Shown here one piece after another: positions 4,419-64,000 of a DNA stretch of 64,000 nucleotides; within the stretch, counting starts at the first letter, position 1, and every line of letters starts with the position of its first letter. A program made the position numbers and the translations under genes. The notes beneath the pieces were generated by a model, which was not told where the DNA came from, did no database searches, and saw only the letters and a program-made list of their open reading frames with translations. The stretch spans positions 248,001 to 312,000 of the forward strand of contig NZ_JAGWCB010000012.1 of NCBI RefSeq assembly GCF_020387415.1. Reading direction: 5' to 3'. The stretch comes from Ideonella benzenivorans (lineage in GTDB: Bacteria > Pseudomonadota > Gammaproteobacteria > Burkholderiales > Burkholderiaceae_C).

Positions 4419-4423
4419 GCGTC

Positions 4424-5319: not shown

Positions 5320-5341
5320 CGGGCCGCCCGCAGGCGGCCCG
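5320..5341 (-). terminator. GC-only hairpin between ilvC and pssA
   Basis: GGGCCGCC (5321-5328) and GGCGGCCC (5333-5340) form an 8-bp stem, extended by one C-G pair, with a 4-base loop. No T-run follows on the minus strand, so it may only pause polymerase or protect mRNA ends rather than fully separate ilvC from pssA. Confidence 0.4.
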
Positions 5342-5376
5342 CTGGACAGAGGGCAGCCAGAGGCCGCCCGTCTGCA

Positions 5377-6447
<1,071 letters not shown>

Positions 6448-6939: not shown

Positions 6940-7103
6940 GTGCATTCTCCTGGCGCGCTCTTCAGGATGACGGCGGTAACCGCCATCCCTTGGCCACGCC
7001 GCATTGGCACGGTTGGGACAATCTCAGCCTCGGCTGCGGGAACCCCCTGAGCCAGCGCAGTCGGCGGCGCGGTAACGCCATCGCCCCGCCAGCCCGAAGG
7101 CGC

Positions 7104-8909
7104 TCACAGGTCCTCGGCGCCGAGCAGCATCTCCGAGAGACCCTTGCCCGCCTTGACCATGGGCCAGACGTTCTCGGTCGGGTCGGTGCGCACGTCCAGG
7201 AAGACGGTGCGGTCCTTCAGACGCATCATCTCCTTCAGGGCCGGTTCGATCTCCGAGGGCTTCTCGATCTTGATGCCGACGTGGCCATAGGCCTCGGCCA
7301 GCTTCACGAAGTCCGGCAACGCATCCATGTAGCTGCTGGAGTAGCGGCCTTCGTAGTCAATCTCCTGCCACTGCCGCACCATGCCCAGGTAGCGGTTGTT
7401 CAAGGCGATGATCTTGACCGGCGTCTTGTACTGCTGGCAGGTCGACAGTTCCTGGATGCACATCTGGATCGAGCCTTCGCCGGTGATGCAGAACACATCC
7501 GACTGCGGCTTGGCCAGCTTGATGCCCATGGCATACGGCAGGCCCACGCCCATCGTGCCCAGGCCGCCGGAGTTGATCCAGCGGCGCGGCTCGTCAAAGC
7601 GGTAGTACTGGGCGGCCCACATCTGGTGCTGCCCCACGTCCGAGGTGATGTAGGTGTCGGTGCCGCGGGTCATCTCCCACAGCGCCTCGATCACCTGCTG
7701 CGGCTTGATCACATCCGGGCTGCGCCGATAGGCCAGGCACTCGCGGCGGCGCCATTCATTGATCTGGCTCCACCACTGGGAGATCACCGCGGTGTCGGGC
7801 TTCTGCTGCGCTTCCTTGATCTGGGCGATCAGTTCCTGCAGCACGTCCTTCACGTCCCCGACGATGGGGATGTCCACCTTGACCCGCTTCGAGATCGACG
7901 AGGGGTCGATGTCGATGTGGATGATCTTGCGCTCCACCGAAGCGAAGTGCTTGGGGTTGCCGATCACCCGGTCGTCAAAACGTGCGCCCACGGCCAGCAG
8001 CACATCGCAGTTCTGCATGGTCATGTTGGCTTCGTAGGTACCGTGCATGCCGGGCATGCCCAGGAACTTCGGGTCCGAGGCCGGTGTGGCGCCCAGGCCC
8101 ATCAGCGTGTTGGTGACCGGGAAGCCCAGCAGATCGGACAGCTGGCGCAGTTCGGTCGAGGCGTTGCCCAGGATGACCCCACCGCCCGAATAGATATAGG
8201 GGCGCTTGGCATTCAGCAGCAGCTGCACCGCCTTGCGAATCTGCCCTCCATGCCCCTTCTTCACCGGGTTGTACGAGCGCATCTCGACGTGCTCGGGGTA
8301 GTGGAAGGGGGCCGTCTTCAGCGAGACGTCCTTGGGAATGTCCACCACCACCGGGCCGGGACGGCCGGTGCGGGCAATGTGGAAGGCCTTCTTGATCGTG
8401 GCCGCCAGGTCGCGCACATCCTTGACCAGGAAGTTGTGCTTGACCACCGGGCGCGTGATGCCCACGGTGTCGCATTCCTGGAAGGCATCCAGGCCAATGG
8501 CGGTGGTCGGCACCTGGCCGGTGATCACCACCAGCGGGATCGAATCCATGTAGGCGGTGGCAATGCCGGTCACGGCATTCGTCACCCCGGGGCCGGAGGT
8601 GACCAGGGCCACCCCGACGTCGCCGGTCGCACGGGCATAGCCGTCGGCGGCATGGACTGCGGCCTGCTCATGACGCACCAGCACGTGCTGGATGCTGTCC
8701 TGCTGGTACAGCGCGTCGTAAATGTAGAGAACCGAGCCACCCGGGTAACCCCAGATGTGCTTGACACCCTCGGCCTGCAGACAGCGCACGAGGATCTGGG
8801 AGCCATTGAGCTCCTTGGGGGAAGCGGAAGACGTGGAGGAAGCGTTCGGAGAGATGGCGCGCCCTTCGGAAGGGGCGGCCCGCTTGACGTCCGCGGCAGA
8901 CATGTTCAT
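7104..8909 (-). CDS. ilvB: Acetolactate synthase large (catalytic) subunit, biosynthetic type
   Basis: Thiamine-diphosphate enzyme condensing two pyruvates (or pyruvate with 2-ketobutyrate). It has 601 residues with a 35-residue low-complexity N-terminal extension. The catalytic Glu sits in [19 protein letters not shown]. The TPP/Mg motif is [14 protein letters not shown] ending in [10 protein letters not shown] (GEGS in place of the commoner GDGS). The start at 8909 has AGAGG 6 bases upstream. First gene of the minus-strand ilv block, divergent from the sigma factor gene. The 260-base gap holds no leucine/valine/isoleucine-rich leader ORF that I could find, in contrast to leuA. Confidence 0.96.
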
Positions 8910-9169
8910 TTCGAACCTCTGTGAATTTCTCTGACGAAAAACCTTCGGTGCCCCTCCCCGCGCCCTCGTGAGGCGGGATTGGAACCTGCGCGGTCAACAA
9001 TCGCCGGCACCCGCGGTCGGGGCGGCCTGAGGACCTGTTCGCAATAGTGCGAGCGGGCATTATGACATCACTCGGAACCGCCGACCGCGCCGCGCCATGC
9101 TGCAATGACATAATCCGCCTTCCCCAGACCGGTCCACCCGCCGTTTGTATCGGGTGGATTTCGCAGCTC

Positions 9170-9742
9170 GTGGCTTCCGACAAAGAACTTACCGACTTCC
9201 TGAAAAGCATCGACAAGCGCGCCTTCAAGCGGACGGTCTACACCGTGCGCGATGAGGATGCCGCCTTGGACATCGTTCAGGACGCCATGATCCGCCTGGC
9301 CGAGAAATACGCCGACCGCCCTGCGGCGGAGCTGCCCCTGCTGTTCCAGCGCATCCTCTCCAATGCCACGATGGACTGGTTTCGTCGCCGCAAAGTGCGT
9401 CAGGCGGTGGAACAGAGCCTGTCCGACTTCGACGGACCGGATGGCAGCGACGGCGGCGACTTCGACCTGCTGGAACTGCTCGAGACCGCCGAAGGCAGCC
9501 TGGGCTCGGAAAGCGCCGCCGACACGGTGGGGCGGGAACAGATCCTGCTCGCGATCGAACAGGAGGTGGCCCAGTTGCCCACCCGTCAACGGGAGGCCTT
9601 CCTGCTGCGTTACTGGGAAGAACTCGATGTGGCTGAAACCGCCAGTGTGATGGGGTGCTCGGAAGGCAGTGTCAAGACGCACTGCTCCCGGGCCGTGCAT
9701 GCACTGGCGAAGTCACTCAAAGCCAAGGGGATTGCGCCGTGA
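9170..9742 (+). CDS. RNA polymerase sigma-70 family (ECF-type) sigma factor
   Basis: About 190 residues. Region 2 spans roughly residues 8-75 (KRAFKRTVYTVRDEDAALDIVQDAMIRLAEKY, then TMDWFRRRK). Region 4 is near the end (LPTRQREAFLLRYWEELDVAETASVMGCSEGSVKTHCSRAVHAL), with a recognisable helix-turn-helix. Between them lies an acidic Asp/Gly-rich linker (DGPDGSDGGDFD). I chose GTG 9170 (MASDKELTDFLKS) because homologues I know start there; upstream in-frame codons are not protein-like. Its TGA overlaps the next start as GTGA. The adjacent membrane-anchored DUF3619 protein is a candidate regulator. Confidence 0.85.
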   Translation: MASDKELTDFLKSIDKRAFKRTVYTVRDEDAALDIVQDAMIRLAEKYADRPAAELPLLFQRILSNATMDWFRRRKVRQAVEQSLSDFDGPDGSDGGDFDLLELLETAEGSLGSESAADTVGREQILLAIEQEVAQLPTRQREAFLLRYWEELDVAETASVMGCSEGSVKTHCSRAVHALAKSLKAKGIAP

Positions 9743-10221
9743 ACACCCGTCCAATGACTTCTCGTCTGCTGCCACAGGAAGTGAGCACCCTGGAGGCACG
9801 TTTCGGCCTGCGTGTGGGGGCCGCCCTGACCGAGCGCAGCGCCCTGCCGCAACATGACATCGCCGAGCGGCTGCGCGTGGCCCGCGAGCAGGCCCTGGCC
9901 CGGGCGCGCAGCGCGCGCACCGCGGGATCGGTCGTGCAGACTGCCGCCGAGACACAAGGGGTCATGGCCCATGCGAACGGCACCTTGTCGCTGGGTCGTG
10001 CGGGCGGCGATCCCTTCCAGGGGGGGCGCTGGGCCCTGCTGGCCTCGTTCCTGCCTTTGCTGTTGCTGGTGCTGGGCCTGGTCCTGATCGACACCTGGCA
10101 CGATCGCGTGCAATCCGCCACGGTGGCCGAGGTCGACACAGCCTTGCTGGCCGACGACCTGCCGCCCGACGCCTACACCGACCCCGGTTTCACCGAGTAC
10201 CTGAAGACCGGCCAACCCTGA
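9739..10221 (+). CDS. DUF3619 family membrane protein (possible anti-sigma factor)
   Basis: A 160-residue protein starting at a GTG that overlaps the sigma-factor stop. The N-terminal half is a soluble helical region (TLEARFGLRVGAALTER, then IAERLRVAREQALARAR). One membrane helix lies near residues 97-118 (WALLASFLPLLLLVLGLVLI), followed by an acidic C-terminal tail. A cytoplasmic N-domain plus one helix, coupled to an ECF sigma gene, is the layout of anti-sigma factors. No zinc-binding HxxxCxxC motif is present, and the family has no established function, so this role is inference. Confidence 0.7.
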   Translation: MNTRPMTSRLLPQEVSTLEARFGLRVGAALTERSALPQHDIAERLRVAREQALARARSARTAGSVVQTAAETQGVMAHANGTLSLGRAGGDPFQGGRWALLASFLPLLLLVLGLVLIDTWHDRVQSATVAEVDTALLADDLPPDAYTDPGFTEYLKTGQP

Positions 10222-10225
10222 TGCC

Positions 10226-10990
10226 ATGTCGATGACCGCTCCTTCTGTCTGCCGATGGCTGAGCCTGCCTGTGCTGGGCTTGGTGCTCGCGCTGGCTGGC
10301 ACCCCTGTCTGGGCGCAGGCCAGCCAAGCCGGCCCGGCGAGCCAAGCCGCCAGCGCAGGCACCCCCTGGGAGAGCCTGAGCCCCGCCCAGCAGAAGGCGC
10401 TGGCGCCACTGGCCAAGGACTGGAACCAGTTGCCCGAGGAGCGCCGGCACAAGTGGGAAGAAGTGGCCGAGCGTTTCGACCGCATGTCCCCGGTGCAGCG
10501 CCAACGTGTGCAGCGGCGCATGACCGAATGGGCCCGCATGAGCCCCCAGGAACGGGATCGCGCCCGCCTCAACTACCAGAAGGCCCAGCAGCTTTCCGCC
10601 AAAGAACGCGAAGCGCGTTGGCAGGCCTACCAGGCGCTCAGCCCCGAACAACGCCACGCGTTGGCCGCCAAGGCCCGTCCGGCCTCCACCTCAGCCGAAG
10701 GCAACAGCCTGCGCGCCCTGCGCCGCGCACCGGTGGACGCCCAGGCCCCCAAGTCGAACATCGTGCGCCCCCCCCAGGGGCCAGGCACGGCACCCAAGTC
10801 GGTGTCGCCGGTGCTGGTCCAGGGGCGGCCGGGCGCCAGCACCTCGCTGATCAACCAGCGCATGCAACCACCGGTGCACCAGCGCGCGGGACAGCCGAAG
10901 ATCACCGTGTCGCCGGCCGAGGTGAACCCCAACACCCTGCTGCCCCGCCAACGCCCGCCTGCGCCGCCGGCCTCCGGAGCGGCCCGGTGA
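10226..10990 (+). CDS. DUF3106 domain-containing secreted protein
   Basis: 254 residues. A signal peptide (about 1-35) is followed by the DUF3106 region (about 45-145). That region is built of repeated short helices around WESLSPAQQKALAPLAKDW, WEEVAERFDRMSPVQRQRVQ and LNYQKAQQLSAKEREARWQAY. The pattern recalls periplasmic helical stress sensors, but no function is known. The C-terminal third is Pro/Ala/Gln-rich and probably disordered. It starts 5 bases after the DUF3619 stop and its own TGA overlaps the next GTG, so it is part of the sigma-factor operon. Confidence 0.8.
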   Translation: MSMTAPSVCRWLSLPVLGLVLALAGTPVWAQASQAGPASQAASAGTPWESLSPAQQKALAPLAKDWNQLPEERRHKWEEVAERFDRMSPVQRQRVQRRMTEWARMSPQERDRARLNYQKAQQLSAKEREARWQAYQALSPEQRHALAAKARPASTSAEGNSLRALRRAPVDAQAPKSNIVRPPQGPGTAPKSVSPVLVQGRPGASTSLINQRMQPPVHQRAGQPKITVSPAEVNPNTLLPRQRPPAPPASGAAR

Positions 10991-11523
10991 GCGGCGCGGT
11001 TTCCGCCGCGCCCGGCACCCCCGATCCCGCCCCCCTGCCCACCCCGGCCCTCGGCCGGCGGCTGGCGGCCTTCCTGTATGAGGGGGTGCTGCTGTTCGGC
11101 GTGATGTTCATCTCGGGCTGGCTGTACTCCACCCTCACCCAACTCAAGGATCCGGACCATCAGGGCACCCTGGGCCTGCAGCTGTTTCTGTTGCTGGTGT
11201 TGGCCGTGTACTTCTGCTGGTTTTGGACCCACGGCGGCCAGACGGTGGCCATGAAGGCCTGGCACATCCGCCTGGTGGACCGCGCCGGGCAGCCGGTCAC
11301 CCCGGGCCGTGCCCTGGCACGCTTCGCCCTGGCCTGGCTCTGGTTCGTCCCCGCGCTGTTGACCGCCAAGCTGGCCGGCCTGCATGGCGGTGCCTTGTTC
11401 GGCCTGATGCTGGTGGGCGTGGGCGCCTATGCCGCGCTGGCCCGCCTGCACCCCGATCGCCAGTTCTGGCACGACGCGGTGTGTGGCACCCGTCTGGTGG
11501 ACTGGCGCCCCACCCGCCCCTGA
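10987..11523 (+). CDS. RDD family membrane protein
   Basis: 178 residues from a GTG overlapping the DUF3106 stop (GTGA). RDD proteins are small multi-helix membrane proteins. Here the Arg of the signature is in LGRRLAAFLYEGVLLFGVMF, and the later motif is GQTVAMKAWHIRLVDRAGQP. About four hydrophobic helices are visible. Function is not settled: some RDD proteins act in sodium-ion tolerance or exchange. It is the last overlapping gene of the sigma-DUF3619-DUF3106-RDD set, with dgkA 43 bases downstream. Confidence 0.85.
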   Translation: MSGAVSAAPGTPDPAPLPTPALGRRLAAFLYEGVLLFGVMFISGWLYSTLTQLKDPDHQGTLGLQLFLLLVLAVYFCWFWTHGGQTVAMKAWHIRLVDRAGQPVTPGRALARFALAWLWFVPALLTAKLAGLHGGALFGLMLVGVGAYAALARLHPDRQFWHDAVCGTRLVDWRPTRP

Positions 11524-11566
11524 CCTGCGCCATCGCACCCCAGGCATCGGCGACAATCCCGACCCG

Positions 11567-11956
11567 ATGACACCTCCGTTCCCTCGCCGCACCGGCCTGT
11601 CCCGCATCCTCCACGCCTTCGGCTATTCCCTGGCCGGCCTGCGTTCCGCCCTGCTTGGCGAAAGCGCCTTCCGTCAGGAAGCGGTGCTTGCCGTTGTGCT
11701 GCTGCCCGCCTCGTTCTGGCTGGGCGACGGCTGGGTGGAGGTGGGCCTGCTGGCCGGCTCCGTGATCCTGGTGCTGGTGGTGGAACTGCTCAACACCGCG
11801 GTGGAATCCACCATCGACCGCATCGGCCCAGAGCGGCACGAACTGTCCGGCCGGGCCAAGGACCTGGGCAGCGCGGCCGTGCTGCTGAGCCTCCTGCTCG
11901 CGGCCGGCCTCTGGGCCGGGGCCTTCTGGCAACACTTCATGAGATCAGGCGCATGA
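11567..11956 (+). CDS. dgkA: Diacylglycerol kinase (prokaryotic DgkA type)
   Basis: 129 residues, three-helix membrane enzyme that phosphorylates diacylglycerol to phosphatidic acid in the inner membrane. The signature [15 protein letters not shown], with the catalytic/metal Glu residues, is intact, preceded by a hydrophobic helix ([15 protein letters not shown]). I chose ATG 11567, since the longer in-frame extension overlaps the RDD gene in another frame. Its TGA overlaps the ATG of the LOG gene (ATGA). Confidence 0.92.
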
Positions 11957-12552
11957 GCCAACGACCGTTTTCTGTCTGTGTGTACTGCGGCTCCCGTCCG
12001 GGCAGCCAAGCCCTCTATGCCGAATCCGCGGCCCGGCTGGGCCAGGAAATCGCGCGCCGGGGTTGGCGGCTGGTCTATGGCGGCGGCCATGTCGGCCTGA
12101 TGGGCATCGTGGCCGACGCGGCGCTCTCGGCCGGCGCCCCGGTGATCGGCATCATCCCCGAGCGCCTGCAGTCACGCGAAGTCGGCCACCGCGGCCTGAC
12201 GGAACTGGTGGTCGTGTCCAACATGCACCAGCGCAAGCAGCGCATGGCCGAGGAAGCCGATGCTTTTCTGTCCATGCCCGGCGGGCTGGGCACCTTCGAA
12301 GAGTTGTTCGAGGTCTGGACCTGGCACCACCTGGGCTACCACAGCAAGCCCATCGGCCTCTTGAACGTGGCGGGTTTCTACCAGCCGCTGCTGGACTACA
12401 TGGGCTTTGCCCATGAGCAGGGCTTTGTCGACGCCAGCCAGCAGCAGGCGCTGACGGTGGACGAGGTGCCGGGCCGTCTGCTGGACCGGCTGGCCGCCCG
12501 TGCCGGCCACAAGGCCCTCAACGCCAGCCCGACCGACTACTCGGCCATCTGA
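11953..12552 (+). CDS. LOG family protein (TIGR00730), cytokinin-riboside-monophosphate phosphoribohydrolase-like
   Basis: 199 residues. The nucleotide-binding motif [16 protein letters not shown] (PGGxGTxxE) is complete, and the N-terminus [19 protein letters not shown] begins the Rossmann-like fold. Family members hydrolyse nucleoside 5'-monophosphates to base plus ribose 5-phosphate. In bacteria the physiological substrate is often AMP or another nucleotide. Translationally coupled to dgkA. Confidence 0.9.
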
Positions 12553-12576
12553 ACGTCCCGGGCCCGCGGGCGCGGC

Positions 12577-12959
<383 letters not shown>

Positions 12960-12963
12960 GAAT

Positions 12964-14664
12964 TTAAGCACGGAACTTCGAAGTGATCGGATAGCGCCAA
13001 TCCCGCCCGAACGCACGGTGGGTGATTCGGATCCCGACCGGTGCCTGGCGGCGTTTGTACTCGTTGAGCTTGATGAGCCGCGTCACCTTCTCGACATCGG
13101 CCCGCGCGAAGCCCGCGGCGACGATTTCGTCGATGCCCTGGTCCTCTTCCATGTAGCGGGCCAGGATGGCGTCCAGCACCTCGTACGGGGGCAGACTGTC
13201 CTGGTCGGTCTGGTCGGGACGCAGTTCGGCCGAAGGCGGCCGGGTGATGATGCGCTCGGGAATCACCGGCCCGATGCTGCCGTCGGCGCGGCGGCTCGGC
13301 TGCCGGTTCTTCCACTCGGCCAGGCGGTAGACCAGGGTCTTGGCCACGTCCTTGATGACCGCAAAGCCACCCGCCATGTCGCCGTAGAGCGTGCAGTAGC
13401 CGGTGGCCATCTCGCTCTTGTTGCCGGTGGTCAGCACGATGGCGCCGGTCTTGTTGGACAGCGCCATCAGCAGCGTACCGCGGATGCGGGCCTGGATGTT
13501 TTCTTCGGTCGTGTCTTCCGGCAAACCGGCGAACTGGGGGGCCAGCGCCTGCTTGAAGCCCTCGAACACCGGGGCAATGCCGATCTCGTCGTAGCGCACG
13601 CCCAGCCGGGCCGCCATGTCGCGCGCATCCAGCCAGGAGATGTCCGCCGTGTAGGGCGAGGGCATCATCACCGCCCGCACCCGGTCCGCCCCCAAAGCAT
13701 CCACCGCCACCGCCAGCACCAGGGCCGAATCAATGCCGCCGGACAGGCCGATGAGTGCCCCCGGGAAGCCGTTCTTGCCGACGTAGTCGCGCACGCCCAT
13801 CACCAGTGCGTGCCAAGCCTGCCCCTCCAGCGGGGGCAAGGGCGCGACCGGGCCACGGACATGGCCATCGGCCCCCACTTCCAACATCAGCGTGGCGGGC
13901 TCGAAGCTGGGGGCGCGGGCGCCGACCAGCCCCTGGGCATCCAGGGCGAACGAGGCGCCATCGAACACCACCTCGTCCTGCCCGCCCACCAGGTGGGCAT
14001 ACAGCAGTGGCAGCCCGACGGCCCGCGCCCGGGCCGCCATGCGGGCCTCGCGCTCACCGTGCTTGTCCAGATGGAAGGGGGAGGCGTTGAGCACGCACAG
14101 CACCTCGGCCCCCGCGGCCTTGGCAGCCTCGGCCGGTTCGTCAAACCAGGCGTCCTCGCAGATCAGCAGACCACAGCGCAGGCCGCCCACCTCGAACACC
14201 ACGGCGCCCCGCCCGGCATCCCGCCCCGAGGCGAAATAGCGTCGCTCATCGAACACCTGGTAATTGGGCAGCTCGCGCTTGCAGTAGGTGGCCAGCACCT
14301 GCCCCCCCGCCAGCACCGAGGCCGCGTTGAAGCGTCGCGGCAGGGAATAGGACTTGGACCTAAGATCGGCGCCATCGTCCCAGTCCTGGGGATGGCCCAC
14401 CACCACATGCAGCCCGGCACAGTCGGCCAATTCGGCCGCCAGTTCCTGCAGGGTCCGCTGGCAGGCGGCCATGAAGGCTGGGCGCAGCAACAGATCCTCG
14501 GGCGGATAGCCGGTCAGCGCCAGTTCCGGCGCCAGCACCAGCTGGGCGCCCTGGGCGTGGGCCGCGCGGGCCGCCTGGGCGATGAGACGGGCATTGCCGG
14601 CCAGGTCGCCCACGGTGGCGTTGATCTGGGCCAGGGCGACGGAGAGGGTGACCGGACTGGACAT
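12964..14664 (-). CDS. nadE: Glutamine-dependent NAD+ synthetase
   Basis: 566 residues with two domains. Residues about 1-265 form a nitrilase-type glutaminase with the Glu-Lys-Cys triad visible in LVLAPELALTGYPPEDLL, YCKRELPNYQVF and GLLICEDAWFDEP. Residues about 290-566 form the synthetase with the PP-loop GLSGGIDSALVLAVAVDALG and the nicotinate-adenine-dinucleotide site around TTGNKSEMATGYCTLYGDMAGGF. It amidates deamido-NAD using glutamine-derived ammonia. Upstream of glnB and divergent from the FemAB-like gene, whose possible first ATG (14663) overlaps its start. Confidence 0.96.
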   Translation of the reverse strand: MSSPVTLSVALAQINATVGDLAGNARLIAQAARAAHAQGAQLVLAPELALTGYPPEDLLLRPAFMAACQRTLQELAAELADCAGLHVVVGHPQDWDDGADLRSKSYSLPRRFNAASVLAGGQVLATYCKRELPNYQVFDERRYFASGRDAGRGAVVFEVGGLRCGLLICEDAWFDEPAEAAKAAGAEVLCVLNASPFHLDKHGEREARMAARARAVGLPLLYAHLVGGQDEVVFDGASFALDAQGLVGARAPSFEPATLMLEVGADGHVRGPVAPLPPLEGQAWHALVMGVRDYVGKNGFPGALIGLSGGIDSALVLAVAVDALGADRVRAVMMPSPYTADISWLDARDMAARLGVRYDEIGIAPVFEGFKQALAPQFAGLPEDTTEENIQARIRGTLLMALSNKTGAIVLTTGNKSEMATGYCTLYGDMAGGFAVIKDVAKTLVYRLAEWKNRQPSRRADGSIGPVIPERIITRPPSAELRPDQTDQDSLPPYEVLDAILARYMEEDQGIDEIVAAGFARADVEKVTRLIKLNEYKRRQAPVGIRITHRAFGRDWRYPITSKFRA

Positions 14665-14686
14665 GGCAGAGGAGAACAGGAAGGCG

Positions 14687-15847
14687 ATGGATTATCACAT
14701 CGGGGTCCATGCCCACCCGGGCGAGCTGGATGCGGCCGCCTGGGACGCCCTGCTCGCCCGCCAGGCCCAGCCCACTCCGTTCATGCGCCACGCCTACCTG
14801 AGCGCCCTGGTCGATTCCGGCAGTGCGACGCCCGAGACCGGCTGGGCCCCGGCCTGGTTCAGCGTCACGCAGGGCGGCCGTCTGGTGGGCGCCACCACGG
14901 CCTGGCTCAAATCCCATTCTTACGGCGAGTACGTGTTCGACTGGGCCTGGGCCGATGCCTACGCCCGGCACGGGCTGGCCTACTACCCCAAGCTGCTGGA
15001 TGCCGTGCCCTTCACCCCGGTGCCGGGCAGCCGGCTGCTGGCCGAGGACGACGCGGTGCGGCAGCGGCTGCTGCGCCAGCTGCGGGACTGGGCCGATCAA
15101 GGCGGGCTGTCGTCGGCCCACCTGCTGTTCCTGGACGAGGCCGAGCAAGCCGCCGCGGCCGCACAAGGCTACCTGCTGCGCCACGGTGTGCAGTTCCATT
15201 GGCAGAACCGCCCCGGCCAGCCCTATGCCGACTTCGCCGACTTTCTGGCCACCTTGCAGCGTGACAAGCGCAAGAAGATCCAGCAGGAACGCCGCAAGGT
15301 CGAAGCAGCGGGTGTGCGCTTTCGGGCGCTGGAAGGGGCCGACATCACCGCAGCCGACTGGGACTTCTTCCACCGCTGCTACGAGGGGACCTACCGCGCC
15401 CACCAGTCCACGCCCTACCTGACACGCGATTTCTTCACCCGGGTCGCCCGCGACCTGGCACCGCACTGGCTGCTGTTCATCGCCGAACGGGCGGGCCAAC
15501 CGGTGGCGGCCTCGCTGCTGGCCATCGACCGCGCCCAACGCGTCGCCTGGGGCCGCTACTGGGGCGCCACCGAGCCGATCGACTGTCTGCACTTCGAAGC
15601 CTGCTACTACCAACCCCTGGCCTGGTGCATCGCCCAGGGCTTCGAGCGCTTTGAAGGCGGCGCCCAGGGCGAACACAAGATGGCCCGCGGCCTGATGCCG
15701 GTGCGCACCACCTCCGCCCACTGGCTGGCCCACCCCCAGTTCGCCCGAGCGGTGGAGGACTTCCTCGCCCGCGAGGGCGCGGGAATCCACGGTTATCTGG
15801 ACGAGTTGCACGAGCACAGCCCGTTCAAGCGCCCCGCGCCGGCATGA
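14687..15847 (+). CDS. FemAB-like GNAT acyltransferase (DUF482 / PF04339)
   Basis: 386 residues. Recognisable family segments are FMRHAYLSALVDSGSATPETGWAP near the N-terminus, then the double-GNAT-like core, with YWGATEPIDCLHFEACYYQP and FEGGAQGEHKMARGLMP in the C-terminal half. These proteins resemble FemA/B peptidyl-glycine transferases and are called peptidogalycan biosynthesis proteins in genomes; the substrate is unknown. An ATG at 14663 is possible, but AGGAAGG stands just before 14687. Confidence 0.85.
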   Translation: MDYHIGVHAHPGELDAAAWDALLARQAQPTPFMRHAYLSALVDSGSATPETGWAPAWFSVTQGGRLVGATTAWLKSHSYGEYVFDWAWADAYARHGLAYYPKLLDAVPFTPVPGSRLLAEDDAVRQRLLRQLRDWADQGGLSSAHLLFLDEAEQAAAAAQGYLLRHGVQFHWQNRPGQPYADFADFLATLQRDKRKKIQQERRKVEAAGVRFRALEGADITAADWDFFHRCYEGTYRAHQSTPYLTRDFFTRVARDLAPHWLLFIAERAGQPVAASLLAIDRAQRVAWGRYWGATEPIDCLHFEACYYQPLAWCIAQGFERFEGGAQGEHKMARGLMPVRTTSAHWLAHPQFARAVEDFLAREGAGIHGYLDELHEHSPFKRPAPA

Positions 15848-56246: not shown

Positions 56247-57152
56247 TCAGCCCGCGGGCGTGTAGCGCACGGCCCGCGGTGGGCGGCACAGCCCCCACAG
56301 ACACAGGCCGGCGGCCTGCGCGGCCCGCACCCCCAGCGCCGTCGGGGCCGACACCGTGGCCAATGCGGCCAGCCCGACCCGGGCGCACTTGGCCACCAGT
56401 TCGTGGCTGGCCCGGCTGGACATCAGCACCACGCCGGGCGCCCCCAGCTGGCCCTGCCGTGCCAGCACGCCAATGAGCTTGTCCAGCGCGTTGTGGCGCC
56501 CGACATCTTCACGCGCCCAGTGCAGCTGGCCCGCCAGGTCGGCCCAGGCGGCCACATGGAGGGCACCGGCCTGGGCATTGAGCGGCTGCGCCGAGCGCAA
56601 TTGCGGCATCACCCGGGCCAGCAGCGCGGCATCCACCTGGCCCAGCCAGTCGGGGGCCGGCCGTGGAGCCGGCAGCAGTTCCAGGGCCTGCAGGCTCTCG
56701 ATGCCGCAGACGCCACAGCCGGTGCGCCCGGCCAACGTGCGGCGGCGCTGCTTGAGCCCCTCCAGCCGGCGCGGTGAAATCTCCAGCTGCACCTCCCAGG
56801 CAGCCGGCGCGCCCGGCGCCTGACAGGCGGCGGGTCGCACCTCCAGGTCGCGCACCTCGTCGACCGAGGCCACGATGCCTTCGCTGAGGGCGAAGCCCAG
56901 CGCGAAGTCCTCCAGGTCCAGCGGCGAGGCCATCATCACGGCGTGCGAGATGCCGTTGAAGACCATGGCCACCGGCACCTCGTCGGCCAGCCAGTCCTCC
57001 ACCGCCTCGGTGACGCCCGCCACCGCCCGCAGCACCGGCAGGCGCACCAGGCCGGCCGGCGCGTTGTCAGACGAGGAAGGGGCGAGAGCATCAGGCTGCC
57101 GGGGCATGGTGGCGGCCATTATCGGCGGCCCACCCGGCCCCTGCCGCCTCAC
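56247..57152 (-). CDS. fdhD: Formate dehydrogenase accessory sulfurtransferase FdhD
   Basis: 301 residues from the GTG at 57152, which overlaps the previous TGA (GTGA); ATG 57119 or 57107 are alternatives, and no clear ribosome site decides. FdhD passes sulfur from IscS to the Mo/W-bis-PGD cofactor of formate dehydrogenase. Its catalytic cysteine pair is seen in GRTGCGVCGIESLQAL. Other motifs are VFNGISHAVMMASPLDLEDF, REDVGRHNALDKLIG and MSSRASHELVAKCARVG. It is the last gene of the minus-strand cluster beginning with selA. Confidence 0.93.
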   Translation of the reverse strand: MRRQGPGGPPIMAATMPRQPDALAPSSSDNAPAGLVRLPVLRAVAGVTEAVEDWLADEVPVAMVFNGISHAVMMASPLDLEDFALGFALSEGIVASVDEVRDLEVRPAACQAPGAPAAWEVQLEISPRRLEGLKQRRRTLAGRTGCGVCGIESLQALELLPAPRPAPDWLGQVDAALLARVMPQLRSAQPLNAQAGALHVAAWADLAGQLHWAREDVGRHNALDKLIGVLARQGQLGAPGVVLMSSRASHELVAKCARVGLAALATVSAPTALGVRAAQAAGLCLWGLCRPPRAVRYTPAG

Positions 57153-58381
57153 ATGAAATTGCGCGTGTGCAGCGCCGCCAGGCGCTCGGCCTGCTCGGCC
57201 GTGAACCCCAGCCGGACCAGCTTGGTGTAGCGGCCATCGGCCATGTCGCGCATGAGCTGCTGGACCTGCGCATACCCCTGGGCCACCTGGGCTGGTGCCA
57301 AGCCGCCGGCGGCGATCAGGATCAGCGCGTCGAACACCTCCTCGTTCAGCCCCGAGGTGCCGGCCAAGGCGTCAAAGCGCTGCTCGACGGCCGAGGCCAG
57401 CCGGTACCGGAAGTCTGGCTCCCGCTGCAAGCGGTACAGCAGATGCGACATGCCCAGCGCCACGTGCCGGGCCTCGTCCCGCGCCGCCAGCCGGGCGATC
57501 TGGCGCGTCAACGGGTCGGGCGCCTGGGTCTGCAGAAACTGCAGCAGGTTGACGAAGGTGCCTTCGCCCAGCACGGACAGCAGAAAGCTCGCGACCGAAA
57601 AATCCGGCTCGTCCAGCAGGCTTTTGAGGGAGGCCTGCCCGCCGGCGGTGGACAGGGCCGGCGCCGAGCCGCCGTGGCGGATGCGGCGGGTGAACACCTC
57701 GATGTGGCGGGCTTCGTCGCAGACCTGCATGGCCAGCGCGGCCTGCATCTCGCGGAAATGCGGATGCAGCTGCCCGAGAAAGCGCGCCGGCACCAGCAGG
57801 GCCGCGTTCTCGTTCTCGATCATGTAGGTCATGACCTGGACAATGGCCTGTTCGACCGGTGCGGGCAGGTCCACCGGCTGCGACCAGTCGATGGCCTGGT
57901 CCGGGTTCCACTGGGCCGCCACCGCCTGGGCATACAGGTCGGCCGCACTGTCGCTCCAGGCCTCGTCCTTGTGCGTCAACCGGAAGTGGTACACGGGCGC
58001 CCCCGCCTCCACCGTGGCGCCCCGCGCAGCCAGGCCCCAGTGCGGCCGGGCCTCCTCGGCCACCGCGCCCGTTTCGGCGGGGTCGATCGCGCCAGTGGAC
58101 TCGGCGCCACGCCAGCGGCCGCTCTGCAAGCCCCCCCGCGTGACCCGCGCCTCACCGGAGGCATCCCCGGGCGCCTCAAAGCCGTGACCCTGGCTGCGGC
58201 ACCAGTCCGCCAGCTGGATGGCCCAGGCCGGCGAGGCGCCCCGCACCCCGAGCACCCCGCCCACCGGCAGCGACGCCAGGGCGTGCTTGACCAGCAGATG
58301 CGCGCCGGCGTCGAAGCCCAGGGCCTCAATAGCGATATGCCGGCTCGGTGATGTGGCCTTGATCGTCATAGAAGTGCTCAT
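57149..58381 (-). CDS. TusA-like domain fused to a diiron ferritin-like domain
   Basis: 410 residues. Residues about 14-70 align with the sulfur carrier TusA (ALGFDAGAHLLVKHALASLP, then ADWCRSQGHGF), but the CPxP of TusA is replaced by Ala-Gly-Ala, so the sulfur-carrying Cys is absent. Residues about 125-330 form a four-helix ferritin-like domain with a full set of candidate diiron ligands: Glu189/Glu191, Glu223 and His226 (DEARH), Glu273 (GEGTF), Glu303 and His306 (DEARH). That points to an oxygen-using diiron enzyme or oxidase. It overlaps the upstream PhnD-like gene by 56 bases and couples to fdhD. No described family name is recognised. Confidence 0.7.
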   Translation of the reverse strand: MSTSMTIKATSPSRHIAIEALGFDAGAHLLVKHALASLPVGGVLGVRGASPAWAIQLADWCRSQGHGFEAPGDASGEARVTRGGLQSGRWRGAESTGAIDPAETGAVAEEARPHWGLAARGATVEAGAPVYHFRLTHKDEAWSDSAADLYAQAVAAQWNPDQAIDWSQPVDLPAPVEQAIVQVMTYMIENENAALLVPARFLGQLHPHFREMQAALAMQVCDEARHIEVFTRRIRHGGSAPALSTAGGQASLKSLLDEPDFSVASFLLSVLGEGTFVNLLQFLQTQAPDPLTRQIARLAARDEARHVALGMSHLLYRLQREPDFRYRLASAVEQRFDALAGTSGLNEEVFDALILIAAGGLAPAQVAQGYAQVQQLMRDMADGRYTKLVRLGFTAEQAERLAALHTRNFM

Positions 58382-59192
58382 CGCTCACCGCCCGTTCGAG
58401 CAGGGCGTAGCCGCTGGTGCGGCCCGGGTGCCAGGCCTTCAGACCTTCGAGCTCCAGCAGCGGCCGCACGGCCGGGTCGTTCCAGTCCATGCCCAGCAGG
58501 ATCTCGCCGAAGCGCCGAGCGACGTCGGCCGGCACGCCCGGGCTGACGGTCATGTTGCAGTGGTCGAACAGCCCGGTGCTGGCCACGATGCGGCTGCCGC
58601 CGGCGGGCAGCGTCCCCTCGTGCGCAAAGGCCCGCTGGTTGCCCGCGATCATCCAGGCCGCGTCGATCTCGCCCTTCATCAGCGCCAGCGCCGCGTCGCG
58701 CTCGCCGCCGATGTGGTCGCCATGCTTGCCGCCCAGCACATCGAAGCGACGGGCGCTGTAATCGCGCCCGGCCACCAAGTCGGCCTGGTGGCGCAGGTGG
58801 TCCAGCGGGATCAGCGTGGCCTGGGGCGAGTCGATCGCGCCGAAGCCGATGGTCTTGCCGCGCAGATCGGCCAGGTCTTGCACCGGGCTTTCGCTGCGCA
58901 CCACCAGCACGGAGGCCAGGTCCATGTCGCTGTCGCGCATGGCCAGGGCCTGCACCTGCTGGCCACGCGCGCGCGCCATGCGCTCGGCCCGCACCCAGGC
59001 CAGCGGCGAGTTCCAGGCAAAGGCGACGTCGCCCTTGAACTGGGCCTCGACCTGGGTCTCGTAGTTGGAATAGAGCAGGTAGTCGAAGGCGAAGCCGCGC
59101 TCGGCGAAGTAGGCCTTGAAGCCTTCCCAGATGGTGACCACCTTGGGCGCATAGGCCACGGCCCCCAGCATCCACGGTTGTGCTTGCGTCAT
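58326..59192 (-). CDS. PhnD-like (phosphonate-binding fold) protein without signal peptide
   Basis: 288 residues. It matches PF12974-type binding proteins of phosphate/phosphonate ABC transporters (VVRSESPVQDLADLRGKTIG, then MKGEIDAAWMIAGNQ), with a LGAVAYAPKVVTIWEGFKAY opening. There is no signal peptide or lipobox at the N-terminus (MTQAQPWMLGAVAYAP), and no ABC permease or ATPase is adjacent, so it is probably cytosolic. GGAGGA lies 8 bases before ATG 59192, which is 16 bases after the flavoprotein stop. Binding-fold proteins without transporters can be enzymes (MqnA, THI5); the ligand is unknown. Confidence 0.75.
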   Translation of the reverse strand: MTQAQPWMLGAVAYAPKVVTIWEGFKAYFAERGFAFDYLLYSNYETQVEAQFKGDVAFAWNSPLAWVRAERMARARGQQVQALAMRDSDMDLASVLVVRSESPVQDLADLRGKTIGFGAIDSPQATLIPLDHLRHQADLVAGRDYSARRFDVLGGKHGDHIGGERDAALALMKGEIDAAWMIAGNQRAFAHEGTLPAGGSRIVASTGLFDHCNMTVSPGVPADVARRFGEILLGMDWNDPAVRPLLELEGLKAWHPGRTSGYALLERAVSDEHFYDDQGHITEPAYRY

Positions 59193-59208: not shown

Positions 59209-60324
59209 TCAGGCCAGCGGCAGGCCACACAGGGCCCGACCGATGAAGTCGTAGAGCACGTCCGAGGTCGGCGCCATCACCGAGGCCGCGCGGGCATCCC
59301 GGAACAGGCGCTCGATCCCCACGTCCTTGCGGAAGGCGGCGCCGCCCCCGATGCGCATCGCGGTGTCGGTCACTTCCAGTGCGGCCTCGGCGGCCGAGGC
59401 CTTGACCTCCAGCACACGCAGCATCGCATCCGGCCGCCCCGCCGCCAGGGCCGCGACGGTGTCATCGCGCAGCAGCCGGGCCTGGTCCACGCGGATGCGT
59501 GCACGGGCCAGATAGGCGCGGATGGTGGGCAGATCGGCCAGCGAGCTGTTGCTCTCGGCAAAGCGGGTGCGCGTCAGATGGGTGGTCACACGCGCCAGCG
59601 CGCCCTCCATCAGGCCGATGGAGGCCGAGGCGATCAGGGTGGCAAACACCGGCAACTCCTCGCCATTCATGATGTCGGCACCGGCGCCGTCCGGCCCCAG
59701 CATGGCGTCCGCCGCGACCACCACGCCCTGCGCCGTCACCGGTGCCGAAGCATTGCCGCGCAGGCCCAGGCCGTCGTAACGGGCCGGGATGCTCAGGCCC
59801 TCGGCCCGGCTGCTGACCAGCCACAGCGTGCTGGCGCCTTCGGCGGCCGCCGGCTGCGAAGACCAGACATAGGAGTCGGCCTCACCCGCCGAGGTGACCA
59901 TGCTCTTTTGTCCGTCAAGCTGGTAGCCATCGGCCAGGCGCTTGGCCATCCCCACCGGGGCCCAGAAATGGCTGCGCGAGCCCACTTCGGACCAGGCCAG
60001 CGTCGTCACGTGACGACCCGCCGCAATCTCACGGCGCACGGCTTGCGTGCCGTGCTTTTCGATCAGGACGGTGCCCGCATAGTGCATGCACACCACCATC
60101 GCGGTGGACGGACAGTCCTGCGCAATGCGCTCCACCACCGCTGCGGCTTCACGGAGACCACCGCCCAGGCCACCCACGGACCGGTCGCTGACCAGGCCCA
60201 GCAGCCCTGCCTGCCCCAGGGCCTGCAACGCGGCGCGGGGGAAGCGCCCCTCTCGGTCCGTCTCCAGCGCGGCGGGCGCAATGGTGTTCTGGACGATGGG
60301 TTCCAACAGGGCAAGGTGGCTCAT
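59209..60324 (-). CDS. Acyl-CoA dehydrogenase-fold flavoprotein lacking the catalytic Glu (SfnB/DszC-like)
   Basis: 371 residues. The acyl-CoA dehydrogenase fold is clear: ALGQAGLLGLVSDRSVGGLG, TTLAWSEVGSRSHFWAP (flavin site) and MRIGGGAAFRKDVGIERLFRDARAASVM. Where dehydrogenases carry the catalytic base in YEGT, this protein reads MAPTSD, so the Glu is missing, as in flavin monooxygenases of the DszC/SfnB group. An oxidase or monooxygenase on an organosulfur or other small compound is therefore more likely than fatty-acid oxidation. It is first of the three genes between selC and fdhD; the start 60324 has GGAG 9 bases upstream. Confidence 0.78.
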   Translation of the reverse strand: MSHLALLEPIVQNTIAPAALETDREGRFPRAALQALGQAGLLGLVSDRSVGGLGGGLREAAAVVERIAQDCPSTAMVVCMHYAGTVLIEKHGTQAVRREIAAGRHVTTLAWSEVGSRSHFWAPVGMAKRLADGYQLDGQKSMVTSAGEADSYVWSSQPAAAEGASTLWLVSSRAEGLSIPARYDGLGLRGNASAPVTAQGVVVAADAMLGPDGAGADIMNGEELPVFATLIASASIGLMEGALARVTTHLTRTRFAESNSSLADLPTIRAYLARARIRVDQARLLRDDTVAALAAGRPDAMLRVLEVKASAAEAALEVTDTAMRIGGGAAFRKDVGIERLFRDARAASVMAPTSDVLYDFIGRALCGLPLA

Positions 60325-60500: not shown

Positions 60501-60538
60501 CGGGTGTCGGTGAAGAACGCATGACGGCGCCAAGGGGG

Positions 60539-60631
60539 CGGAAGGCAGCCGGAGTCGAACCGACCAGGGAGCGGCTGACGCCCCCTACCGGGTTTGAAGC
60601 CCGGGCGCACCACCGGATGCGTTTGCCTTCC
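60539..60631 (-). tRNA. selC: tRNA-Sec (anticodon TCA)
   Basis: 93 bases. An 8-bp acceptor stem GGAAGGCA/TGCCTTCC, as in bacterial selenocysteine tRNAs. Anticodon arm CCGGGCTTCAAACCCGG with loop anticodon TCA (reads UGA), a long variable arm (AGGGGGCGTCAGCCGCTCCCT) and T arm with GGTTCGACTCC. Discriminator G. The 3' CCA is not encoded (the next bases are CCC). It lies 13 bases after selB, completing selA-selB-selC. Confidence 0.95.
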
Positions 60632-60644: not shown

Positions 60645-62612
60645 TCACGGGGCCGGCGCGGATTGTAGGGGGGGCTCTTCCACCTGTTGGGGATGGGGCC
60701 AACCCGGCTCGGCCCGCAGCACATGGGCGTCCCGCACCCGCCGGGTGTAACCCACCCGGTCGAAGAACTCCAGCACCTGGATGGCCCGCTTGCGGCCCAG
60801 ACCGGTGTGGTCGCGAAACTGCCGGGCCTCCACCTCGCCCCGCTCGGCGTGCGTGGACAACCATCCCAGCAGCCCGGACAGCAGCTGCACCTGCGATGCG
60901 GTGTAGAACAAGTCCTTGACCACCTGGAACAGCTGCCCCTGACGGGCCAGCTTGCGCATCAGCTGGCGCACCACCTCCTCGGGCGCGCCAGCCCGTCCGG
61001 CCAGGTCGCGCACCCAGGGTGGGTCGAAGCCGCCTTCCTCCACCCAAGGCAGCAGGCGTTCGGCCAGCGCGCGTTCGCTGTCGCTGAGGCTGACCTCGTG
61101 GTCCGGCAGGTGCAGCCAGGCGCCGCTGGCGGCGATGGCGCCGTCACGCAGCAGGACGTCCAGCAGCGCCCGCCACAGGGCATCGTGCTGCGGCTGGGCC
61201 TGGCCCGGCAGGGCCATGCGGCGCAGGCGGGCGGCATTGACGCCGGGCTCGTCGGGCGTGCGCTCGTGGAAGCGCGCCAGCGCCGCCAGCACCTGTTCGC
61301 GCCAGCGCTGCCAGACGGCCTCGGTCAGCAGCAGGGCATCGTCCGGCCCGCTGGGCAGTGGCACCAGCCCGGTATCGGCCAGCGCCAGTGCCTCGGGCGG
61401 CCGCCCCATCAGCAGGGCCAGGCGGCTGCGCAGCAGGCCGGTGGGCGACTGGGCCACCAGGTCGGCCAGCCGACCACCGGCCAGCGCCGCTTCCAGCGCG
61501 TCCAGATAGGCTTGGCGCTCCGGGCTGCGGCGCTTGCGTTCGGGCGCGAAGGGGTCGATCACTGCCCCGCCGCCGATGGTGCAACTGGCCTGGGCGTTGC
61601 GCAGGATGAAGCGGTCGCCCGGCAGCACGAAGACCGGCTGCGCGAAGACCAGTTGCACCCGGGCCTCGCGGCCGGGCGCCAGCGCCACGTCATCCAGCAG
61701 GGCCACATGGGCCGTCTGGTGGGTGGTGCCCGCATGCACATGCACCGGCGCCCACTGGGCCAGGGCCGGTGCGTCCGGCAGCAACTGCAGGCGCACATCC
61801 ATGCGGGTGCTGGCCTGCAGGGCGCGGGGGTCGGCGATCCAGTCGCCGCGGCGGATGGCCTCGCGTTCGATGCCCACCAGGTTCAGCGCGCAACGCTGCC
61901 CGGCCACGCCGCGGGGCGCTGCCTGGTTCTGGGCATGGATGGAGCGCACCCGCACCCGCTGGCCGCTGGCGGAATGGGCCACGGTGTCGCCCACCGCCAC
62001 CTGGCCGCCGAACACCGTGCCGGTGACCACCGTGCCCTGCCCGGCCAGCGTGAAGACGCGGTCCACCGCCAGGCGGAACAGGCCATCCTGGCGGCGCTGG
62101 GCATGGTGCTCGGCCAGAGCCCACAGATGGGCCCGCAGCGCCGCCACGCCAGGATCGCCTTCGGCCGTGGCGGCCGTTGCGAACACAGGGGCTTGGGCCA
62201 GCGGCGTGCCGGCCAGCAGCGCGGCCAGCTCGGCCCGCACCTCGGCCACCCGGGCCGCTTCGGTGCGGTCCACCTTGGTCAGGGCCACCGTGCCTTCGCG
62301 CACGCCCAGCAGGCCGAGGATGGCCAGGTGCTCGCGGGTCTGCGGCATCACGCCGTCATCGGCGGCCACCACCAGCAGGGCATGGTCCACCCCCACGGCC
62401 CCGGCGGCCATGGTGTGGACGAACTTCTCGTGGCCGGGCACGTCGATGAAGCCCAGCACCTCACCGCTGGCCAGCGGCGCATAGGCGTAGCCCAGCTCGA
62501 TGGAGATGCCGCGGGCCTTCTCTTCCTTCAGGCGATCGGTGTCCACGCCGGTGAGCGCGCGCACCAGCGTGGTCTTGCCGTGGTCGATGTGGCCGGCGGT
62601 GCCGATGATCAT
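60645..62612 (-). CDS. selB: Selenocysteine-specific elongation factor SelB
   Basis: 655 residues. Special EF-Tu-like GTPase that brings Sec-tRNA to UGA codons. The G domain begins [20 protein letters not shown], with [15 protein letters not shown] and ALTKVD. EF-Tu-like domains 2-3 follow ([16 protein letters not shown]). The C-terminal half consists of winged-helix repeats that bind the SECIS hairpin ([20 protein letters not shown] and the final [20 protein letters not shown]). The open frame continues upstream, but the family start at 62612 overlaps the selA stop (ATGA). Confidence 0.97.
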
Positions 62613-64000
62613 CGCGCGCGGTCCTCCGCCAGCGCCTGCTGCAAGGCGCCGAACTGGGCCGCGAAAGCGGCTTCGTCGCGCTCGTCCAGGCAGCGCAGGT
62701 CCAGCCACAGCGCGTTGTCGCCGATGCGGCCGATCACCGGCCTCGCCAGGCCACGCCAGGCGGCTTCCAGCCGCGACAGGGCCCGGCCGGCCCGTTTCGC
62801 CTCGGTCGGCTCGATGCGCAGGCCCGCGCTGGGCAGGGTGTTGACCGGCAGCGCGCCGCTGCCGATCTGGCTGAACATGGGTGCCAGGGACACCTGGTAG
62901 GCGCTGCCCAGCGCGGCCTGCAGCGGCGCCAGCAGGCGCTGGGCCTGAGCCTGCATGGCCGCCTGCGGGCGGGTGAACAGGCGCAGCGCCGGCAGGCGCT
63001 CGGCCAGGAATTCCGGCGCCTGGTACAGACGCAGCACCGGCTCCAGCGCGGCCAGGGTGAGCTTGCCCACCCGCAGCGCGCGCTTGAGCGGGTTCTTCTT
63101 GATCTTGGCGATCAGGTCCTTGCGGCCGACGATCAAGCCGGCCTGCGGGCCGCCCAGCAGCTTGTCGCCGCTGAAGCTCACCACGTCGACCCCGGCGGTC
63201 ACCACGTCGCGCACGGTGGGCTCGTGCGGCAGGCCCCAGTCGGCCAGGTCGATCAGGGTGCCGCTGCCCAGGTCCACCGCCAGCGGCAGGTCCTGGGCGT
63301 GGGCGATGCGGGCGACCTCGCTCTCGGCCACGCTGGCAGTGAAGCCGGTGACCGCGTAGTTGCTGCAGTGCACCTTCATCAGCAGCCCGGTCTTGGGCGT
63401 GATGGCGCCTTCGTAGTCGCGGGCATGGGTGCGGTTGGTGGTGCCCACCTCCACCAGCCGGGCGCCGGCGCGGGCCATGATGTCCGGGATGCGGAAGGCC
63501 CCGCCGATCTCCACCAGCTCGCCACGGGAGACGATGACCTCCTTGCGCGCGGCCAGGGCGTTGAGCATCAGCAGCACCGCCGCGGCGTTGTTGTTGACCA
63601 CGGTGGCGGCTTCGGCCCCGGTCAGCTCGCACAGCAGGTCGCTGACCAGGTCGTCACGGTCCCCCCGGCCGCCGGTGGCCAGGTCGTATTCCAGGTTGGC
63701 CGGGCTCGTCAGGGCCTGGACCACGGCCTGCACCGCCTCGTCGGGCAGCAGGGCCCGGCCCAGGTTGGTGTGCAGCACGGTGCCGGTGAGGTTGAACACC
63801 GCCCGCAGACGAGGCGCCCGCTGGCGCTGCAGATCGGCCTCGACGGCCTGGGCCAGGGCGGCGGGCGAGCCGGCCTCGGTCGCCAGCACCTCGCCCGCGC
63901 GCAGGCGGCTGCGCAGCGCCTCCAGCTGCCGCCGCACGGCCGCGGTGACCAGGCTGAGCCCATGCTCCCTCAGTGCGGGCTGGAGTGCGGCACTGGCCAG
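62609..64000 (-). CDS. selA: L-seryl-tRNA(Sec) selenium transferase SelA (5' end outside window)
   Basis: The minus-strand frame stays open to base 64000, so the N-terminus is cut; about 463 residues are present. The upstream [18 protein letters not shown] matches the SelA N-domain, so the true start is beyond the edge rather than at the GTG 63937. PLP-enzyme motifs are intact: [45 protein letters not shown], and the PLP-Lys in [18 protein letters not shown]. It converts Ser-tRNA(Sec) to Sec-tRNA(Sec) with selenophosphate. Coupled to selB. Confidence 0.96.

Follow-up and report, generated by a model that had tools for sequence, protein, structure and literature searches.

A fusion of a cysteine-less TusA fold with a ferritin-like diiron domain is part of a conserved, selenium-linked set of three genes

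The TusA-diiron fusion and its domains

The window analyzed here is a stretch of 64,000 nucleotides from Ideonella benzenivorans (contig NZ_JAGWCB010000012.1, positions 248,001 to 312,000), in which an open reading frame (ORF) on the minus strand (57149..58381) encodes a 410-residue protein, P0001, that according to its translation, Pfam matches, an AlphaFold2 model and multiple alignments combines an N-terminal TusA-like domain with a predicted C-terminal diiron domain. Upstream on the same strand lie the genes for a 288-residue cytosolic protein related to the substrate-binding protein (SBP)-like Rv1680 (58326..59192; NCBIfam and Pfam matches, fold comparison and alignment), and for a 371-residue flavoprotein, P0003, related to the acyl-CoA-dehydrogenase-like (ACAD) Rv1679/FadE16 (59209..60324; NCBIfam and alignment). 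The TusA-diiron gene is one member of a conserved three-gene module, and the link of this triad to selenium metabolism is well supported by its gene neighborhoods and by co-occurrence. The original prediction, made from the sequence of the window, had recognized the fusion and missed the module and its selenium tie, which are larger than the fusion itself.

The TusA-diiron protein is laid out as a TusA-like region (residues ~14-81), a low-confidence linker (~90-145) and a ferritin-like diiron region (~146-390). In the AlphaFold2 model (mean predicted local distance difference test score, pLDDT, 77.8; predicted template modeling score, pTM, 0.79) residues 15-81 adopt the order strand-helix-strand-helix-strand-strand, with block pLDDT values of 80-92 over residues 11-80; there follow the linker, in which residues 113-142 fall under a pLDDT of 50, and a helical bundle. 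The Pfam TusA model PF01206 matches residues 29-78 with 18.6 bits against a cut-off of 28.6 (E 0.0017; 21.7 bits in a six-frame search). Sub-threshold matches recur near the N-terminus of divergent diiron relatives (loci L158, 15.0 bits, and L161, 15.6 bits) and in relatives with a radical S-adenosylmethionine (SAM) domain (P0005, 17.3; L171, 16.3; L154, 14.5 bits), and are absent in the Pfam scan from the radical SAM-type relatives of L155, L139 and L140. Profile-profile alignment with HHalign recovered the TusA set with three overlapping N-terminal profiles of the diiron proteins (probability 95-96%, score 44-47) and with two near-identical radical SAM N-terminal sequences (probability 97%, score 54); 100 column shuffles per profile gave a top score of 18.7, and none of each 100 equaled the real score, on which ground chance was rejected as the source of the TusA assignment. 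The TusA set comprised 10 sequences, namely that of L001, which exceeds the PF01206 cut-off, and nine plasmid matches; seven of the nine have a TusA annotation, one is part of a CoA-disulfide reductase and one has no annotation. The alignments begin at the first helix, directly past the cysteine loop. A profile search of solved structures returned a match for the diiron region and no TusA chain, and a Pfam match of P0001 to DUF2857 (E 0.017) was taken as chance. The fold order of the model and the profile-profile results thus agree on the TusA-like segment proposed originally, and the N-terminal domain is confirmed as a TusA fold without the carrier cysteine.

The fate of the cysteine loop was followed in two alignments, A1 with 25 sequences (one from an actinobacterial metagenome-assembled genome, MAG, the rest mostly betaproteobacterial) and A3 with 18 sequences from both phyla, down to 38% identity; relatives with 88% and 90% identity to P0001 come from two Ideonella genomes. 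Cysteine is absent from residues 15-34 in all 25 rows of A1 and in 16/16 covering rows of A3 (two of its 18 rows do not cover this region), and the first cysteine of P0001 is C61. The earlier description of the CPxP site as reading Ala-Gly-Ala is therefore upheld as regards the missing cysteine in all covering rows, but Ala-Gly-Ala itself is only one reading of the register, the TusA cysteine position aligning with either D24 or A25. Residues D24, G26, A27 and H28 are invariant in A1 and not so in the actinobacterial rows of A3; the former cysteine loop of the A1 members is an invariant GxDxGAH motif, in place of which the actinobacterial sequences of A3 show another loop that is rich in glycine. 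Because this motif is invariant in A1, the carrier site has been remodeled, not merely lost.

The C-terminal part of P0001 matches the Pfam AurF model PF11583 with an E-value of 6.5e-7 and 29.2 bits, just under the curated cut-off of 29.6. Foldseek searches with the model recovered VlmB (6d9f) and aldehyde-deformylating oxygenases as the best among 18 matches at E <= 0.001; further neighbors of the helical bundle include R2-like oxidases and PaaA, with identities of 14-23% in the fold alignments. The bundle bears an E, ExxH, E, ExxH ligand pattern, and E191, E223, H226, E273, E303 and H306 are unchanged across A1 (25 sequences) and A3 (18/18), i.e. in two phyla. These six account for the diiron ligands proposed originally except E189, which was dropped as it is not invariant (Ser in three and Gln in one of the 18 rows of A3). 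Every row of both alignments ends in a LHTxNxM motif (404-410 in P0001). These comparisons confirm the assignment of the C-terminal part to the ferritin-like diiron domains as a relative of VlmB, the aldehyde-deformylating oxygenases and AurF, with iron binding and O2 activation as predicted properties, and profiles, model and Foldseek together bear out the joining of the two domains.

The triad and its selenium context

The SBP-like protein shows no leader peptide in its sequence and is related to PtxB and PhnD by profile and to PtxB, PhnD, ArrX and AioX by fold; Thi5 ranks under these by fold, and a Thi5-like (thiamine) role was set aside. Its GKHGD and His-Cys (H211-C212) motifs are kept in 14/14 in-frame members, and the L135 member, when correctly framed, also shows both. 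The window protein scores 212 of the 400 bits of the Rv1680 NCBIfam model; with 45.7 of 250 bits against the selenate ATP-binding cassette (ABC) transporter SBP model TIGR04553, and no leader, it falls outside the latter family. P0003 likewise remains under the cut-off of the Rv1679 NCBIfam model (355 of 600 bits). In 16/16 rows of the ACAD alignment the catalytic Glu of the short-chain acyl-CoA dehydrogenase type (YEGTSE) is replaced by Ala, once Ser (MAPT/MSPT), P0003 having Ala, and S112-E113 is invariant. This might imply that the ACAD-like protein is not an ordinary dehydrogenase; the solved structure 7p98, which is termed a short-chain acyl-CoA dehydrogenase, has Thr at this position, so the loss of the Glu does not settle the reaction.

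The triad is complete in 31/34 distinct diiron loci, in the order ACAD-SBP-TusA-diiron in 29 and TusA-diiron-ACAD-SBP in two (L156 and L159, from the actinobacterial sample); in the window the SBP ORF and that of the TusA-diiron protein share 56 nt. The three exceptions are L021, cut within the gene by the end of its contig, L033, a decayed copy that also lies at the end of a contig, and L014, with an ACAD fragment upstream, a full ACAD gene downstream and a weak radical SAM match (25%, 6e-7). In the decayed triad (L033/L172, from the SelD-positive genome G084) the SBP gene is in two pieces and the TusA-diiron gene is truncated with a stop. In Lampropedia (L012:1866-10440, L014:8253-10451) the TusA-diiron gene and selD have a second ACAD gene between them, and in L012 a taurine-type ABC transporter is encoded upstream. 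Seven of 300 Burkholderiales genomes match the TusA-diiron query at E <= 1e-5, and six of these have the diiron protein (including the window genome and the decayed G084); the seventh match (G059) is a distant ferritin-like protein. Spread of the diiron form on plasmids was rejected, with 0 matches at E <= 1e-5 among 72,556 plasmid records.

In the window genome the triad lies in a single-strand run with the order fdoG-fdoH-fdoI-fdhE-selA-selB-selC-ACAD-SBP-TusA-diiron-fdhD, the fdo and fdhE genes being past the window end. On the minus strand are selC, the selenocysteine (Sec) tRNA gene (60537..60631; ARAGORN 60537-60631, Rfam RF01852 60540-60631 with 76.5 bits), selB for the Sec-specific elongation factor (60645..62612, with an ATG at 62612, identified by matches to selB-like queries and by its neighbors), selA (62609..63937; TIGR00474, 607.2 bits; the family match, G000:C13:310651-312024, runs past the window end) and fdhD for the formate dehydrogenase accessory sulfurtransferase (56247..57119, this start being inferred; PF02634, 217.5 bits). 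Beyond the window lies fdoG (L183:3159-6227, minus strand), the gene for the alpha subunit of formate dehydrogenase, in which an in-frame TGA (Sec) occurs at 197. A promoter scan found no promoter.

Association with sel genes extends beyond Ideonella: 9/34 diiron loci, from six lineages in two phyla, have sel genes in the stretch read. These are selA-selB in Ideonella (three loci) and Hylemonella, selD with mnmH in Xenophilus and Ramlibacter, selD in Lampropedia (two loci) and, in the actinobacterium G793, a triad beside selB-selA-selD. Family scans confirmed the sel neighbors of L010, L012 and L021 and selA in L161; one neighborhood scan was run without a selA query. The probability of such adjacency by chance was put at 2e-10 (9/34) or 2e-7 (6/22), rough values that rest on an assumed rate of 1.2% and an assumed lineage count.

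Co-occurrence points in the same direction, with SelD in 33/34 distinct diiron-bearing genomes (binomial 2e-4 against the Burkholderiales background). This count comprises 28/29 listed genomes less one duplicate (G037 and G689 have the same coordinates) and six further actinobacterial genomes, with the decayed G084 counted. The sole diiron genome without SelD, a Delftia MAG, has no match to SelA or MnmH either; both of these are found in a second Delftia, and SelD is present in its same-coordinate counterpart G133. SelA was found in 18/30 and MnmH in 25/30 of the genomes searched, and 10 distinct genomes, several of them MAGs, have SelD and MnmH and no SelA match (G678, G681-G684, G687, G688, G689 = G037, G257, G084). 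Given these SelA and MnmH counts, the linkage follows SelD, the shared step, and not Sec alone, and the triad is therefore placed at or before selenophosphate. Among the SBP-like proteins of the actinobacterial sample TIGR04553, a putative selenate SBP family, is the second NCBIfam match after Rv1680 in 3/3 members scanned. Separately, at L138 (G049, 3034-15797) a phosphonate-type ABC transporter is encoded together with a selenate-type SBP that scores 355 bits with TIGR04553 (cut-off 250); egtD adjoins these genes, and selD lies about 8 kb off.

Exchange of the third component

The Rv1680-type SBP is present at E <= 1e-40 in 11/246 actinobacterial genomes. Seven of these have the diiron protein and all seven are SelD-positive; G843 and G892 have an Rv1681-type radical SAM protein and no SelD match; G920, again without a SelD match, has a MetE-like protein followed by OsmC; and G735 is SelD-positive, with the radical SAM, MetE-like and diiron queries unmatched nearby. 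In the proteobacteria G507 and G492, which have no SelD match, the ACAD-SBP pair is convergent with a gene for a protein with a cysteine-less TusA-like and a radical SAM domain. Such fusions to the Rv1681 family are encoded at L135:7735-8811(-) and L171:9073-10146(-), in SelD-less genomes, and P0005, of this radical SAM form, scores 498.6 bits against NF049973 (cut-off 380). The TusA-like domain was detected in 3/4 SelD-less radical SAM forms (G507, G492 and, with a weak Pfam match, G843), and Pfam gave no TusA match in the radical SAM proteins of G892 and of a Mycolicibacterium plasmid. As judged from these matches, the cysteine-less TusA domain is joined to different catalytic domains.

The five genomes without a SelD match (G843, G892, G920, G507, G492) gave no hit to the diiron protein at E <= 1e-5. 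SelD is thus present with 33/34 diiron forms versus 0/5 other third components (Fisher 1e-5), and with G735 and a Miltoncostaea oceani plasmid added the contrast is 33/34 versus 2/7 (Fisher 1.6e-4). The latter plasmid (L166, 4693-17015) has selB-selA-selD beside radical SAM, GT2, DUF2064, ACAD and SBP genes, and its Rv1681-like radical SAM protein has no TusA match. Two further contexts are of note. At L162:1424-10550 the ACAD-SBP genes are followed by those for a MetE-like methyltransferase and OsmC, with MTAP-like, ArsM-like, radical SAM, GT2 and TIGR04282 genes upstream. On the Mycolicibacterium vanbaalenii plasmid (L139) an ACAD-SBP-radical SAM set lies near a deiodinase-like gene and genes for glutaredoxin and CcdA; a TrsS-like radical SAM protein and an arsenite-methyltransferase-like protein are also encoded nearby.

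Proposed function and alternative explanations

The makeup of the triad, with a predicted oxygenase beside a flavoprotein and a putative capture protein, suggests the opening of an organoselenium compound. The TusA-diiron protein would be the oxygenase component of a selenium-supply module acting upstream of the selenophosphate synthetase SelD: in the cytosol the SBP-like protein would capture a small selenium compound, organic or methylated, whose C-Se bond would be cleaved oxidatively by the diiron domain, together with or fed by the flavoprotein, and selenide, or a reducible oxidized form, would then reach SelD. Such an O2-dependent module, which would most likely supply SelD with selenium freed from an organic or a methylated source, is our tentative interpretation, to which we give somewhat less than an even chance. 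A precedent for methylated selenides as a selenium source is Methanococcus maripaludis, in which an SdmABC-like operon and TusAD transcripts are reported as up under selenium depletion (PMC11097638). The cysteine-less TusA domain would carry neither sulfur nor selenium and would serve for docking, either onto a TusA protein or onto the partners from its own operon. Docking is the simplest role because no chalcogen carriage is possible through the known cysteine; the putative docking or allosteric use suggested originally also fits, and is strengthened by the finding that a TusA-like domain without the cysteine apparently occurs on a radical SAM enzyme as well, next to an ACAD-SBP pair equivalent to that of the triad. 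The exchange of diiron, radical SAM and MetE-like proteins in the third position likewise fits three ways to dealkylate one kind of substrate. A more sweeping version, which we consider rather unlikely in its full extent, is a dedicated O2-dependent acquisition of selenium. Its ACAD-SBP core would capture and open an organoselenium compound, or possibly an organoarsenic one in other genomes, and feed SelD, and the cysteine-less TusA module would be the adaptor through which different bond-cleaving catalysts, diiron or radical SAM, are brought to this core (the MetE-like protein of one genome having no TusA).

Several observations weigh against a selenium-supply role. No sel gene lies in the stretch read at 25/34 diiron loci (some contigs being short). 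SelD is common in the background (217/300 Burkholderiales, ~72%; 181/246 in the actinobacterial sample, 162 of them over the cut-off) and the genomes are related, so that co-occurrence alone is evidence of moderate strength; in random samples, a weak test, SelD is found in 13/13 versus 385/533 (p 0.024); G692 and the window genome are among the 13, and for the actinobacterial sample the query was the SBP and not the diiron protein. The window SBP-like protein scores higher with two generic phosphonate models than with TIGR04553. The occurrence of radical SAM and MetE-like forms in five genomes without a SelD match means that the core ACAD-SBP pair cannot be selenium-only, and there are two SelD-positive contexts without the diiron protein, G735 and the Miltoncostaea plasmid (for which the plasmid and not the chromosome was searched). 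Finally, the dealkylation step is proposed by analogy, and its substrate and product, like the metal of the diiron domain, are putative.

Alternatively, the triad might make a small selenium- or arsenic-containing metabolite or intermediate, with SelD supplying selenophosphate and the diiron or radical SAM domain functionalizing a C-H bond. This is unlikely, albeit not far-fetched: the radical SAM and MetE-like forms lie beside TIGR04282 and GT2 genes, which NCBIfam relates to arsenosugar biosynthesis glycosyltransferases, some of these loci also have MTAP-like and ArsM-like genes (the L162, L155, L171 and L166 set), and the solved relatives nearest the diiron domain include the azoxy synthase VlmB, with the AurF family also related. 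TIGR04282 is above cut-off in L162 and L171 and under it in L140/L166 and L155, and the GT2 matches are far under the TIGR04283 cut-off (48-58 of 182 bits); moreover, neither transferase query matches any proteobacterial diiron locus at E <= 1e-6, where the scanned flanks are sel, fdh or apparently unrelated genes.

Protection against selenium or metalloid species, by detoxification or in oxidative stress, is a further and improbable alternative, in which co-occurrence with SelD would reflect exposure. It would accord with the arsenate- and arsenite-binding ArrX and AioX among the fold neighbors of the SBP-like protein, with its conserved His-Cys, and with the redox, TrsS-like and arsenite-methyltransferase-like genes near the Mycolicibacterium plasmid copy. 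The nine sel-adjacent diiron loci, however, adjoin genes for selenoprotein or selenouridine biosynthesis, and no resistance gene was named among the scanned flanking genes of the diiron loci (most flanking genes being unscanned). We regard as likewise improbable a role in the maturation or repair of formate dehydrogenase, in which the triad would partner FdhD in sulfur transfer to the molybdenum cofactor and the TusA-like domain would be an FdhD docking site. The Ideonella triad does directly precede fdhD in the fdo-sel run, and fdhD is near both Lampropedia loci, but the Hylemonella, Xenophilus, Ramlibacter and G793 loci have sel genes and no fdhD in the stretch read. As a general role it was rejected in view of the ten distinct SelD- and MnmH-positive genomes without a SelA match, which probably have no Sec formate dehydrogenase (several being MAGs).

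The triad can be set beside several known systems. With the TusA/SirA sulfur carriers (PF01206) P0001 has the fold order and the N-terminal profile in common, but it lacks the loop cysteine, which makes carriage by the known mechanism impossible, and is fused to a predicted oxygenase. YedF (SirA-like and DsrE-like domains) is also a TusA-fold fusion tied to SelD by genome context (PMC2432076, PMC5322559); unlike P0001, with no loop cysteine and a diiron domain instead, it is described as keeping CPxP and a CGxC DsrE-like domain (PMC5322559). The four-Glu two-His ferritin-like site is common to AurF, VlmB and the aldehyde-deformylating oxygenases, which are the best sequence and fold matches, whereas identity is low (14-23%), the TusA domain is additional and the substrate is putative. 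SdmABC resembles the triad in the proposed outcome, selenium from methylated sources, and is set apart by its description as a corrinoid methyltransferase system of methanogenic archaea (PMC11097638).

The Rv1679-Rv1680-Rv1681 type (NF049984, NF049985, NF049973) likewise combines an ACAD, an SBP-like and a third catalytic protein, TusA-like in G507, G492 and G843, but its third domain is a radical SAM one, in genomes without SelD, and the window ACAD and SBP-like proteins are under the NCBIfam cut-offs. We take this gene order and the name MoeX to be those of M. tuberculosis.

Selenium-linked families named in the literature include YedE, YedF, DUF3343 and a LysR-like factor (Lin et al. 2015) and SirA-like, HP1 and HP2 proteins (Zhang et al. 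2008); acyl-CoA and ferritin are absent from the main texts of both papers, and phosphonate from that of Lin et al. 2015. No published description of a TusA-diiron or of an Rv1679/Rv1680/moeX-type module was found in the open-access literature, and NCBIfam, which names the Rv1679, Rv1680 and Rv1681 families, has no model that the TusA-diiron protein matches above its cut-off, in line with the original statement that no family of this architecture is described. Thus, the module appears undescribed as such, with protein domains of known superfamilies and a reaction that is putative.

According to two reviews, a specific high-affinity selenium transport system is not known in prokaryotes (PMC9312934, PMC13188914). 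The module is a genetically testable candidate for the missing selenium-supply step in aerobes and gives a possible functional context for the uncharacterized Rv1679-Rv1681 type operon. It also offers a likely example of a carrier-protein fold that, devoid of its cysteine, has come to serve as a platform for several kinds of catalytic domain.

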